From the NCBI RefSeq assembly GCF_900149695.1, contig NZ_LT703003.1, positions 310,001 to 374,000 of the forward strand: DNA of 64,000 nucleotides, given 5' to 3'. The notes under the pieces are model-generated. The model ran no database searches and had not been told where the DNA came from. It saw only the letters and a program-made list of their open reading frames with translations. Each line of letters starts with the position of its first letter. Within the stretch, counting starts at the first letter, position 1. The DNA comes from Anderseniella sp. Alg231-50. Lineage in GTDB: Bacteria > Pseudomonadota > Alphaproteobacteria > Rhizobiales > Aestuariivirgaceae. Shown in pieces: positions 36,711 to 40,638 of the stretch. Both the position numbers and the translations under genes were made by a program.

Positions 36711-36725
36711 ATCAACAATATTGAT
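36711..36725 (+). promoter_or_regulatory. LysR-type T-N11-A palindrome before lysR
   Basis: ATCAACAATATTGAT is an interrupted palindrome of the LysR T-N11-A form, located 11 bases before the ATG at 36736. It suggests autoregulation and argues against the TTG at 36721 as the start. Confidence 0.5.
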
Positions 36726-36735
36726 AGAACTCCAA

Positions 36736-37611
36736 ATGCTGCCCAACCTGGATGTCGACCTGCTCAAAACCTTCGCCGTACTGGCGGAAACCGGCAATTT
36801 CACCCGCACCGCAGAAGCGGTTGGCCGCACCCAGTCAGCTGTTTCCATGCAGGTCAAACGCCTGGAAGACCTGGTTGGGAAGCCATTGATTGCGCGGGTC
36901 GGACGGTCCAATTCGCTGACGTCGGACGGCCAGATGATGCTGGATTACGCGCGCCGGATGATCCAGCTGAACGATGAGGCGATGACGGTTTTCACCAAGC
37001 CGGAGATATCCGGTCATGTGCGTTTCGGCACGCCGGACGATTACGCGGACCGCATCCTGCCGGACGTGATGGCGCGGTTTGCCCGTACCAACCCGAAAGT
37101 CCAGGTCGACGTCGAATGCCAGGCCAGCCGCACCATGGTCGACATGGTGAAGTCAGGCGATCTCGACCTGGCCATGATCACCTGTGAGTGCGACATCGCC
37201 AATGCACAGGTGATCCGCTCGGAACGGCTTTTGTGGGTGACGTCCGCGCGCCATTCGGTACATCGCAGTGATACATTGCCGGTGGCCCTGTCCCAGTTCG
37301 ATTGTGCCTGGCGGCAGATGGCGCTGGACGGGCTTGAGGTGATCGGGCGGCCTTATCGGCTCGCTTACACCAGTTCCAATTCAGTGGCCATCACCTCTGC
37401 CGTCGCGGCCGGACTGGCCATTGCGGCCATCCCTGAAATCTGCATGCGCCCGGGCATGCGGGTATTGAGCGAAACCGATGGTTTTCCACCGTTGGGAATA
37501 TTCGACATCGGACTGATCAGGTCATCGAAGACCAATGCCGCCATCGACAGCCTGGCCTGCCACATCGCCGATGCCATGTGCCAGCTGACACCTGCGATGG
37601 CAGCGGAGTGA
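36736..37611 (+). CDS. LysR-family transcriptional regulator
   Basis: The 291-residue protein has the LysR winged HTH at its start (LDVDLLKTFAVLAETGNFTRTAEAVGRTQSAVSMQVKRLEDLVGKPL). The periplasmic-binding-like effector domain follows (HVRFGTPDDYADRILPDVMARFARTNPKVQVDVE). The start ATG 36736 fits the family N-terminus. Its target is unknown. The last 290 bases of the gene and its trailer recur in shortened form at 38611-38762. Confidence 0.93.
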   Translation: MLPNLDVDLLKTFAVLAETGNFTRTAEAVGRTQSAVSMQVKRLEDLVGKPLIARVGRSNSLTSDGQMMLDYARRMIQLNDEAMTVFTKPEISGHVRFGTPDDYADRILPDVMARFARTNPKVQVDVECQASRTMVDMVKSGDLDLAMITCECDIANAQVIRSERLLWVTSARHSVHRSDTLPVALSQFDCAWRQMALDGLEVIGRPYRLAYTSSNSVAITSAVAAGLAIAAIPEICMRPGMRVLSETDGFPPLGIFDIGLIRSSKTNAAIDSLACHIADAMCQLTPAMAAE

Positions 37612-37634
37612 CTATTCCCTGACGGCGGGCGTTG
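37345..37634 (+). repeat. Direct repeat copy 1: lysR 3' end and trailer
   Basis: The segment runs from GGGCGGCCTTATCGG in lysR to GGCGGGCGTTG 20 bases after its stop. It recurs at 38611-38762 with three base changes and one 138-base deletion. Confidence 0.95.
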
Positions 37635-37990
37635 CGGCAGTCAAGCGCAACTCAGCAAATATGGACTGCGCGGAAAGCGGCGACTGAATGTCGGCTTAGC
37701 AGACAAAGCTGCCGTTCAAATCAACCGAACGAAAGCCCGCTTCTGACCCAATGCAGACATCTGACAATGCTTCGTAGCCGAGCTGATTTACATTCAACCC
37801 TTCGGCTGAAAGCAGTGTCAGCACAATATTGCTTTCGTCATGGCACTTCATTATACTTAAGGCCTAGACCCAATTACAGAAAGAGGCGAGATAGCCGCTC
37901 GGTTGCTCAACTAAAAAGTCGGCGATTTGGTTGAGTACCTCAAAACGACCTAGGACCTATTTTCTCTAATTGTACCGGAACCCGCGGATC
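37612..37990. other. Intergenic region with no intact gene; part of an inserted segment
   Basis: After the lysR stop the first 23 bases belong to the direct repeat. The rest is AT-richer and holds no convincing gene. One frame near 37866-37950 reads LDPITERGEIAARLL, a stop, then KVGDLVEYLKTT, which may be a decayed coding scrap. The promoter of the following membrane-protein gene should lie here, but I could not place it with confidence. Confidence 0.4.
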
Positions 37991-38584
37991 ATGAGTGAAA
38001 CAAATTTCAAGCTTGATGTAATGCCCTTTATCATTGCGACAGCGGGAGAGTTCTTGGCGCTTCACTACTGGCTGACATATCAGGATCTCGGCTATTTTAT
38101 TCTTGCGAACATCATTCTCTGGGCGGGCTTCCTGACCGAGCGCATCGCTGTCATTACTTGGATTCAAAGAGTGTACAGGCCAAAGGAAGGTGTCGCGTCC
38201 GAAACCACATCCGTTGCCAAAAAAGCCGTCGGCCTGGTCATCGTTACTTTGACCGAAATTGTCATATGGATTGTCTGGTTATGGTTGGCGGACGAGGTGG
38301 ACTTCTGGTTGGCTGGTGCAGTTCTCATGGTGCTCATGCTTGCTGAGCACAGCATGGAAATGGCCCTGCTCAAAAGGGACAGTTTTTGGAAATATGTCGT
38401 CGATGTCAGAACGATTTTCTTTACCCTGATGGAAGTTGCAGGGGGCATAGGTTGGTTGTATCTGGTGCGCGAAGGTGAGCCGATTTGGGGTGCTATTGTT
38501 CTCATCCTGGGGCTATCGATCGAGCATATTCTGCAGGGTCGACAGCTAAGACCTGAACCATCGCAGAGGATGGCCGCTGCCTAA
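37991..38584 (+). CDS. Predicted multi-pass membrane protein of unknown family
   Basis: The 197-residue protein starts at ATG 37991 and has about six hydrophobic stretches: FIIATAGEFLALHYWL, GYFILANIILWAGFLT, AVGLVIVTLTEIVIWIVWLWL, WLAGAVLMVLMLAEHSME, IFFTLMEVAGGIGWLYLV and IWGAIVLILGLSIEHILQG. The acidic residues placed inside helices (GEF, LTE, AEHS, IEH) recur in each half and suggest an internal duplication. I do not recognise the family. Base composition is lower in GC than neighbours, and the gene lies between two copies of the lysR tail, so it looks inserted. Confidence 0.75.
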   Translation: MSETNFKLDVMPFIIATAGEFLALHYWLTYQDLGYFILANIILWAGFLTERIAVITWIQRVYRPKEGVASETTSVAKKAVGLVIVTLTEIVIWIVWLWLADEVDFWLAGAVLMVLMLAEHSMEMALLKRDSFWKYVVDVRTIFFTLMEVAGGIGWLYLVREGEPIWGAIVLILGLSIEHILQGRQLRPEPSQRMAAA

Positions 38585-38610
38585 AACCCGCCGACGGTGC
38601 TGGAGATCAT

Positions 38611-38762
38611 GGGCGGCCTTATCGGCTCGCTTACACCAGTTCCAGTTCAGTGGCCATCACCTCTGCCGTCGCGGCCGGGCTGGCCTGCCACATCGCCGAC
38701 GCCATGTGCCAGCTGACACCTGCGATGGCAGCGGAGTGACTATTCCCTGACGGCGGGCGTTG
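38611..38762 (+). pseudogene. Truncated second copy of the lysR 3' end (direct repeat copy 2)
   Basis: The 152 bases match 37345-37634 with substitutions at three places. They lack 138 bases (46 codons, in frame) between two CTGGCC hexamers. Two of the three changes are silent in the LysR frame and one gives Asn to Ser. No start or HTH region is present, so it cannot be functional. Confidence 0.9.
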
Positions 38763-38780
38763 ACACTTTCCATCGGCCGA

Positions 38781-38808
38781 TTGACAAATCGGACCCCTCA
38801 TATTTAAT
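38781..38808 (+). promoter_or_regulatory. Sigma-70 promoter of the cobalamin riboswitch transcript
   Basis: TTGACA (38781-38786) and TTTAAT (38803-38808) are 16 bases apart. The predicted start, near 38815, falls right at the first riboswitch helix. Confidence 0.65.
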
Positions 38809-38815
38809 GAATGTT

Positions 38816-39003
38816 GATGGTTCCCGAACCGCTCCGGCGGCACGGGATTTAAAGGGAATACGGTGCGGCTGGTGAAAACCCGTCAAATCCGTGACTGCCC
38901 CCGCAACTGTAGGCGGTGAGCCGACCCGAGTTACACCACTGGGCCCGATTGCCCGGGAAGGTTCGGAAAAGGCTGAGACCCGCAAGTCAGGAGACCTGCC
39001 ATC
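38816..39003 (+). ncRNA. Cobalamin (B12) riboswitch
   Basis: The 188 bases carry the class-I cobalamin riboswitch landmarks in order. These are GATGGTTCCCG, GGGAATACGGTGCGGCTGG, TGAAAACCCG, the B12 box region GACTGCCCCCGCAACTGTA, GCCACTG-like ACACCACTGGG, GGGAAGG, and the final GTCAGGAGACCTGCC. GATGG at the 5' end pairs with CCATC at the 3' end as helix P1. A GC-rich hairpin (CCGGGC..GCCCCGG, 39019-39036) then precedes the AAGGAG site at 39039, so control could be at translation. Such riboswitches repress B12 synthesis or cobalt/B12 transport genes, but none follows here. Confidence 0.92.
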
Positions 39004-39050
39004 GCAATTCAACTCAACCCGGGCGGGGTGCCCCGGCAAGGAGCATTGTG

Positions 39051-39176
39051 ATGACAGACCGGCACTGCCGAGACACCATGGAATGCCTGCGCCAGACGAC
39101 CCGTCCACTGCGCGGAGGGCGCCATGGTACTAAACCGGCTTCTAGACAGACTTCAGCTGCACCACACCGGGCATGA
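39051..39176 (+). CDS. Short ORF directly after the cobalamin riboswitch
   Basis: The ATG at 39051 stands 6 bases after AAGGAG and opens a 41-codon frame (MTDRHCRDTMECLRQTTRPL...). The product is basic with two cysteines and matches no family I know. It may be a leader peptide for the overlapping frame at 39124 or the decayed start of a former cobalt or B12 gene. Support is the ribosome site and position only. Confidence 0.4.
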   Translation: MTDRHCRDTMECLRQTTRPLRGGRHGTKPASRQTSAAPHRA

Positions 39177-39426
39177 CAGGGCCAACGAGTTCGGCCAACT
39201 CGGTTTCATGGAATGGCTCGGCTCGCTGCCTGCTGACAGCGATTACTATCACCAGGCGATGACGGCGTATCAAAAGGCGCTACCGCTCAGGTTAACAGCT
39301 CCGGCGATTGGAGTTTTCTGCGACCTTTTGATTGCGTCCACACGGATGCCGCCGCAGCCACTGGACTTGTCGCTGCCCAGCCCGCACCGCAGAGGCGGTG
39401 CCAGGGGACGGCGAATGCTGCACTGA
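39124..39426 (+). CDS. Hypothetical protein under the cobalamin riboswitch, possibly frameshifted
   Basis: The ATG at 39124 follows GGAGGG by 5 bases. The first ~57 residues (NRLLDRLQLHHTGHDRANEF, GQLGFMEWLGSLPADSDYYH, QAMTAYQKALPL) look like a real protein. The rest of this frame is Arg/Pro-rich and unconvincing. Near 39290 a neighbouring frame becomes more protein-like (SGDWSFLRPFDCVHTD onward to a stop at about 39519), which suggests a frameshift. I do not recognise the family. Confidence 0.45.
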   Translation: MVLNRLLDRLQLHHTGHDRANEFGQLGFMEWLGSLPADSDYYHQAMTAYQKALPLRLTAPAIGVFCDLLIASTRMPPQPLDLSLPSPHRRGGARGRRMLH

Positions 39427-39657
39427 AAGATGCCGGGCACTGTTGGCAAGTCCGTTTCGAGGGACTCCAGCGGCCAAAGGGGCAGTTAACAATGCAAGAT
39501 TGGGGCCGTGATCGATAAAGCCACATTGTGGTCAATATATTCATCTTCACTTAGGCTAAGGGGGGAGGCGTGATGCGGCTTCCACTAACTTGGGATGGCT
39601 CCTGAAGGGTTCTTTCTCACACACGTGCCAAACGCATGCGTGAGTTGAAGGGCAGTT

Positions 39658-40638
39658 GTGGGTTGTGTAAAAATGCAGTGTGATCCGAGTAAGGACTACT
39701 TCGCGGTACTTGGGCTGTCGTCTCAGGCGCCTCCGGAAGTGGTAAAGGCGGCCCATCGGGCATTGGCCAAGAAATTCCATCCGGACCTGCATTCAGGCGA
39801 GGACACCGAGGCCGAGAAAAGATTTCAGGAGATACAAGAGGCTTACGAAGTCCTTCGCGATGAGGACAAACTCAAGCAATACCTGGCTTTGCGTGCGCAA
39901 ATCAAACTGCAGATGCAGCAGCAACAGGCAGCACCGGCGCGGCCCCATATCCGCCCGAGGGTCTATCTGAAGCTGGACGACCGGTGGGATCATCTGGTTC
40001 GCAGGTATCCCGAACTCAGCCAGCACTATGCAAAATTCTGCTTCCTCTCCCACAAGCTCGGCAGACAATACAAGCTTATCATTCTGGGCAATCAGAATCC
40101 TGCCCGTTTCAAACGGGTTGCAGCCAAGCTGGAGCGGCAGTTCTACAGGCGGCACTTCTCCTATCACAGAAACCTTCAGACGCTGGCCAGGAAACTGGCT
40201 GCCAGTCACAGGCGGCACGCGGTGCGCATGCTGCAGACGGAGATAAAAGGCAGGCGGTTTGTGTCAAAACGCAGCAGGTCGGAGATAGTGTGGCGCTATG
40301 AATCGAGATACTTGCAGGATGAGGCACCGGTTAAAGCTGCCAACAGGTCATCTCTGCGAACCCGCGTGCAACGTGGCACCGCCCACCGGCATTATCCGGG
40401 ACAGCAGCGTACCACGCTCAAGTCGACCCACAACCGTCCGATTGCCTGGTTGTGCATGGGCATGGCAGTGGCACTCGGCGCGCTCATTGTCGTTGGCCCG
40501 CTGCTGGCGCCATCCGAGATCAGTATGAACCAGCAGGCTCAGGCCAAGGTCCAGGTCCAGGGTCTCGGCCGGTCCAATTGCATCATTACGACGCCGCTGG
40601 CCGCTTCTGCTGCACAACTCAATAAAAACGTCTGTTAG
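39658..40638 (+). CDS. Membrane-anchored J-domain protein
   Basis: The 326-residue protein opens with a J domain (about residues 12-75): DYFAVLGLSSQAPPEVVKAAHRALAKKFHPDLHSG with the HPD motif that stimulates DnaK. A basic middle region of unknown type follows (~90-260). One membrane helix lies near the C-terminus (AWLCMGMAVALGALIVVGPLLA), then a short tail. It lacks the Gly/Phe and zinc domains of DnaJ, so it is a type-III J-protein that may recruit DnaK to the membrane. The GTG at 39658 follows GAAGGG; ATG 39673 is the alternative. Confidence 0.85.
   Translation: MGCVKMQCDPSKDYFAVLGLSSQAPPEVVKAAHRALAKKFHPDLHSGEDTEAEKRFQEIQEAYEVLRDEDKLKQYLALRAQIKLQMQQQQAAPARPHIRPRVYLKLDDRWDHLVRRYPELSQHYAKFCFLSHKLGRQYKLIILGNQNPARFKRVAAKLERQFYRRHFSYHRNLQTLARKLAASHRRHAVRMLQTEIKGRRFVSKRSRSEIVWRYESRYLQDEAPVKAANRSSLRTRVQRGTAHRHYPGQQRTTLKSTHNRPIAWLCMGMAVALGALIVVGPLLAPSEISMNQQAQAKVQVQGLGRSNCIITTPLAASAAQLNKNVC

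Follow-up and report, generated by a model that had tools for sequence, protein, structure and literature searches.

A cobalamin riboswitch upstream of a conserved, uncharacterised small-protein gene, with a relay-like leader, in Anderseniella sp. Alg231-50 and its relatives

Which gene does a cobalamin riboswitch control when no annotated B12 gene stands behind it? The question is raised by a locus on contig NZ_LT703003.1 of the alphaproteobacterium Anderseniella sp. Alg231-50 (assembly GCF_900149695.1). It lies within a stretch of 64,000 nucleotides (positions 310,001 to 374,000 of the contig), which was analysed as a whole and is called the window below; coordinates refer to this window. 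A preliminary description, made from the letters alone, had placed a complete cobalamin riboswitch at 38816-39003, had called it an orphan, and had proposed a covariance-model search as a check. Scanning the whole window with Rfam at gathering scores yielded a sole match, to the cobalamin riboswitch family RF00174 at 38801-39017 on the forward strand, which encloses the proposed element. The match is full-length (model positions 1-189 of 189) and strong, with 136.5 bits (E 3e-34) against a gathering score of 31.5 bits, and on this basis the aptamer probably binds cobalamin. In the 4.6 Mb genome (8 contigs) one further RF00174 match was found (C1:531479), with a HupE/UreJ gene behind it. This second locus recalls the B12-regulated cobalt and nickel/cobalt transporters, cobalt transporters being named as a target class of cobalamin riboswitches in passages of PMC2667541 and PMC3766115. 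The locus studied here differs from it, since the 100-amino-acid protein encoded behind the switch is modelled as four helices with a tail and matches no transporter family.

A sigma-70-like promoter had been assigned to 38781-38808. Its -35-like part stands: an exact TTGACA at 38781-38786, contained in CGATT-GACA-AATCG (38778-38791) and lying within a 16-base block which is identical in a congener (G001). The -10 region, on the other hand, is poor by eye and has diverged in the congener, and no promoter is listed at 38781-38808 by a consensus promoter scan. Further upstream the 3' part of a LysR gene (36721-37611) is repeated just ahead of the riboswitch, the copies lying within 37345-37634 and 38611-38762 (75 nt at 97%, 104 nt at 90%). 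Between them a membrane-protein-like frame is found (37970-38584; DoxX_3 below cut-off only), at the spot of which the congener carries a different gene on the opposite strand. The region between the repeats looks like a variable insertion spot.

Two short frames had been noticed behind the riboswitch, and both exist, at 39051-39176 (41 amino acids) and 39124-39426 (100 amino acids), neither with a Pfam family at cut-off. The congener made it possible to examine the longer one for coding character, as riboswitch, leader and 39124 frame form one block in both genomes, with 527 of 655 DNA columns identical (80%) from the -35 hexamer to the end of the frame, while the flanking genes on both sides, close to the block, differ. 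Mismatches within the frame are distributed over the three codon positions as 18/13/40, which corresponds to a dN of 0.153 and a dS of 0.920, and the products are 76% identical. The frame keeps 77 of 101 letters; over the same region the two other forward frames each keep 51 of 100, and the antisense frames 50 to 63. Judged by these comparisons, the 39124 frame is a real conserved gene under purifying selection. Pfam and NCBIfam searches with eight members of its family gave no match above cut-off (best E 0.061 and 0.067, respectively). A literature search found no paper on the gene; PMC3766115 covers cobalamin regulons of Rhodobacterales, and its supplement may list the gene unnamed.

Homologues were collected from 2 of 60 relatives, 4 of 397 genomes drawn from the order and 2 of 385 drawn from the class (own genome counted each time), from 36 of 394 genomes in the family of a Roseobacter relative, and from three Cereibacter plasmids, which yielded 45 loci in total, genomes and plasmid hosts possibly overlapping. 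The distribution is patchy, the draws from order and class being nearly empty. An RF00174 scan around the gene covered 42 of the 45 loci. The riboswitch lies directly upstream on the same strand in 37 of the 42 (G000, G001, G799, G070, G095, G838, G1169, G975, two Cereibacter plasmids, and 27 of the 29 loci L041-L069) and in three more (G063, G1141, G1066) it is again on the same strand, at a distance of 2.4-3 kb upstream; at the remaining two (G742, G1052) the scan found none. The search for homologues next to B12 riboswitches, which the preliminary description had suggested, thus gave a riboswitch at 40 of 42 loci. Its proposal of a new B12-regulated small protein gains support from this linkage to the same riboswitch class, together with the purifying selection on the 39124 frame. 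The term orphan fits in so far as the target is unannotated, but a conserved gene family follows the same switch in relatives. Among the diverged members, L067 and L069 have an RF00174 aptamer upstream which lacks the usual GACCxGCC end. On two Cereibacter plasmids (L035 5311-5858, L036 5313-5858) two divergent cobalamin riboswitches are found about 135 nt apart, one facing corrin genes and the other facing the small gene.

Leader analysis covered 36 of the 45 loci; the aptamer-end pattern was present in 32, of which 31 remained after removal of a near-duplicate. The presumed expression platform is a P13/L13 hairpin directly behind the aptamer (39019-39036, CCGGG-CGGGGUGC-CCCGG). All five P13 pairs are present in 26 of the 31 loci, and 147 of 155 cells are paired; shifting the 3' arm by one to three positions lowers this to at most 123. 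A single compensatory change, from G-C to A-U, was seen (L044), P13 and L5 being mostly invariant with little covariation. At this locus L13 (GCGGGG) is complementary to the L5 segment CCCCGC at 38899-38904, as placed by the RF00174 alignment, and CCCCGC is found in all 31 loci within the 200 nt that precede the aptamer-end motif, these loci having all been preselected for GGCGGGG in L13. This complementarity points to an L5-L13 kissing loop.

Directly behind P13 a Shine-Dalgarno sequence AAGGAG (39038-39043) precedes the ATG of the shorter frame (39051-39176), which is nested in a longer listed open reading frame and, in a different frame, extends past the start of the 39124 gene. An ATG is found 15-32 nt behind L13, a stretch set after the leaders had been inspected, in 29 of the 31 loci. 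Of these 29 upstream open reading frames (uORFs) 24 are out of frame with the main gene, with stops 4 to 569 nt past its start; the other five are in frame and could be N-terminal extensions of the gene. In the congener the uORF stop overlaps the gene start as ATGA. A leader uORF is a better reading of the 39051 frame than the regulated product. As a control 21 other B12-riboswitch loci from the own genome and relatives were used, a weak control as the L13 pattern was matched in six only; five of the six have no short ATG frame 15-32 nt behind, and in the sixth (L022), which has one, the motif is located 136 nt past the aptamer and apparently inside a gene.

This arrangement suggests, by analogy, a translational relay like that of the ppe2 B12 riboswitch of Mycobacterium tuberculosis. 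According to passages of PMC11260477, the start of a uORF is predicted there to be masked by a hairpin that carries a likely L13; the stop of this uORF overlaps the next start (AUGA), and expression of PPE2 needs translation of the uORF. The two leaders share, as far as these passages describe the mycobacterial one, the L13 hairpin ahead of a short uORF and the overlap of stop and start, AUGA there and ATGA in the congener here, and in the loci studied here the short frame, preceded in 27 of 29 by an SD-like stretch, runs past the gene start wherever it was placed (29 of 29). Compared with the same passages, they differ in phylum and target, in the out-of-frame uORFs ending at varying distances (4 to 569 nt) past the gene start, and in the downstream Shine-Dalgarno sequence being part of a conserved 13-mer. 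Set against cobalamin riboswitches in general, the locus has the full-length aptamer match, the L5/L13 pairing partners and a P13 beside a ribosome-binding site in common with them; it departs from them in a target gene without a Pfam or NCBIfam family and in the uORF between switch and gene. Taken together, and on sequence comparison, the 39124 gene is real and conserved, lies outside the family libraries, and is the probable target of a B12 riboswitch with a relay-like leader.

The preferred reading, to which a probability of about 0.72 is assigned, is that of a functional B12-responsive operon leader which controls a conserved, uncharacterised protein of about 100 amino acids by way of a uORF relay and as an OFF switch. 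At low cobalamin the L5-L13 kissing loop would be unformed and ribosomes would initiate at the uORF (AAGGAG, ATG 39051); their transit over GCGC-GGAGG-GCGC and over the overlapping stop and start would then allow translation of the 39124 gene. With cobalamin bound, P13/L13 would dock on L5, the uORF start would be occluded, and both frames would be silent. What the analysis shows directly is the RF00174 match, the way in which P13/L13 pairs across the loci, the overlap of uORF and gene start in relatives, and the coding conservation of the 39124 frame; from these we infer cobalamin binding, the OFF direction and the coupling between uORF and gene.

The alternative which survives best, an unlikely one, is that the riboswitch acts directly on the 39124 gene and the uORF is incidental and dispensable. 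High G+C favours open frames: all 29 placed uORFs read over the main start codon without a stop, against 20.2 of 29 expected after base shuffling (nominal P ~1e-5, ignoring relatedness), and 37 of 58 alternative frames across the same start are open as well. The 39124 gene also has a strong Shine-Dalgarno sequence of its own (GGAGG, 39114-39118), and two loci (L057, L068) lack an ATG in the 15-32 nt stretch in which the uORF is expected. Against an incidental uORF stand, besides its consistent openness, the SD-like stretch ahead of 27 of the 29 and the near-fixed distance of its start behind L13 despite divergence of the leaders. In addition P13 adjoins the uORF start, and the Shine-Dalgarno sequence of the 39124 gene is located about 75 nt further on.

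That second Shine-Dalgarno sequence is embedded in the 13-mer GCGCGGAGGGCGC (39110-39122), a GGAGG with GCGC arms, which is found exactly in 28 of 32 loci (C_SY5 included). Of ten genomes, the own and two others hold it once, five hold 2 to 5 copies and two hold none, the reversed pattern giving 0 to 2 per genome as a control. A scan of viral contigs for the 13-mer plus ATG found 37 stretches. By eye the 13-mer is missing in the diverged loci L067 and L069, where the short intervening frame is seemingly kept. Consensus folding proposes a GCGC-GCGC pairing with GGAGG in the loop, a pairing which scarcely varies, and individual predictions have GGAGG mostly paired. The own leader folds with a z of -3.8 and has the 39124 start paired in the prediction; the congener has a z of -0.5, and over 32 leaders the values range from -3.8 (own) to +1.6 with a mean of only about -0.7. 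As moreover the P13 stretch (z +0.92) and a 35-nt stretch around the Shine-Dalgarno sequence (z -0.32) fold no better than shuffles, sequestration of the ribosome-binding site by folding stays a hypothesis drawn from the models.

The 13-mer also gives rise to a second alternative, according to which the 39124 protein acts chiefly in feedback regulation through RNA or DNA binding, its Arg/Gly-rich tail attaching to GCGCGGAGGGCGC in its own leader. The conserved RRGG tail and the persistence of the 13-mer across distant genomes, with one occurrence in its own, would fit. The element, however, is absent where the gene sits within a transporter operon, in G063 (0 genome copies) and by eye in L056, and the tail is kept in both, so that the 13-mer appears to go with the leader; feedback regulation is considered improbable. 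Still less credible is control of the J-domain gene by read-through, a possibility raised in the preliminary description. This gene is real (39658-40638; PF00226, E 2.5e-18), is located on the same strand 231 nt past 39426, and a scan of 38550-39750 found no intrinsic terminator-like site. In the congener, however, it lies about 2.6 kb downstream behind a LysR gene of opposite strand, while riboswitch, uORF and 39124 gene stay linked, and in a clustering of neighbours, many loci of which reach just 1.5 kb, the J-domain cluster consists of the two congeners only. The relic proposal, in which a cobalt or B12 gene was lost and left its control region ahead of short chance frames, could appeal to the lack of an annotated B12 gene behind it and to the differing flanks of the two congeners, but is rejected by the purifying selection on the 39124 frame and by RF00174 at 40 of 42 homologous loci, the full-length aptamer match and the recurrence of the arrangement in dozens of genomes adding to this, and it is the least probable of all.

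If the 39124 gene is the target, the next question is what its product does. An AlphaFold2 model from three sequences (mean pLDDT 80) places four helices within residues 2-73, followed by an RRGG tail of low confidence. A PDB sequence search gave 0 matches for the 39124 product, and Foldseek and VIA-align searches with the model found nothing convincing, an absence which says nothing about a new fold. A reading as cobalt chaperone was rejected, as no conserved set of His/Cys metal ligands was seen in the family by eye; the best-kept cysteine, C66, is an arginine in L065, L066 and L068.

Gene neighbours were counted on the same strand at 41 placed loci, from which the query proteins had themselves been taken, so that the counts are context and not a blind test. 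A BtuF-like gene (PF01497) follows directly downstream at 7 of 41 (G861, G1095, G1029, G810, G879; partial in G990 and G1141), the match beginning 303-364 nt past the start of the small gene. metH is found downstream at five (G095, G990, G980, G1014, G891; with other genes intervening in G095 and G990), a homocysteine S-methyltransferase gene at one (G1099), a gene for a DUF1289-DUF6925 protein downstream at four (G063, G810, C_ORIO; partial in C_SY5), and a ZnuA/B-type ABC transporter upstream at two (G063, G1141). At least one of these partners is present at 15 of 41 loci, and none on the same strand at 26, own genome and congener included. Besides, at G1162 metH is encoded on the opposite strand and a CobW match lies 3.6 kb downstream, G843 has a weak ZnuB match, and the Cereibacter loci adjoin cobyric acid synthase genes. 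Example neighbours were named by Pfam and NCBIfam, those called BtuF, MetH and zinc ABC transporter scoring below the NCBIfam whole-protein cut-offs.

Of 40 genomes with the small gene family 18 have a BtuF-like gene, compared with 4 of 40 without the family (Fisher P 9e-4, relatedness uncorrected), and within the single family draw the figures are 15 of 34 against 4 of 40 (P 1e-3, again uncorrected); neither the own genome nor the congener has a BtuF-like match at E 1e-30. The BtuF-like proteins are connected with the 39124 protein as neighbours at 7 of 41 loci but are not that protein, and three scanned examples fall under the NCBIfam BtuF cut-off. In L048 (1832-2614) and L052 (663-1493) the BtuF-like neighbour opens directly with the binding-protein domain (from residue 9). 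Inspection by eye shows no clear signal peptide, so that a cytosolic location is suggested; the called frame of L041 begins 81 residues before the domain. Downstream of a cobalamin riboswitch, the small gene is followed by a DUF1289-DUF6925 fusion in L031 (6142-7023) and L036 (6276-7220), and a literature search found no paper combining DUF1289 and cobalamin. Rieske-type oxygenase genes are found in several genomes behind cobalamin riboswitches near the small gene (L032 9775-9976, L042 1050-1245, L095 7088-7290). Judging from the neighbours in relatives, the 39124 protein may help, when B12 is scarce, to handle corrinoids or cobalt or to make methionine, a suggestion with about an even chance of being right.

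A family present at 45 loci and lacking a Pfam or NCBIfam model can be linked to B12 status through its RNA switch, which makes the 39124 family a target through which an unknown step in the physiology of corrinoids, cobalt or methionine can be tested. In Roseobacter relatives and some other Alphaproteobacteria this undescribed family of small helical proteins could be a dedicated part of the low-B12 response which works with intracellular corrinoid handling (BtuF-like) or with methionine synthase; a cobalamin riboswitch would control it by way of a uORF relay that is obligatory and includes a conserved Shine-Dalgarno element. This wider picture is as apt to hold as to fail. If true, it would mean that the uORF relay, which the passages of PMC11260477 report for a single B12 riboswitch of mycobacteria, also exists, as a conserved arrangement, in a second phylum.
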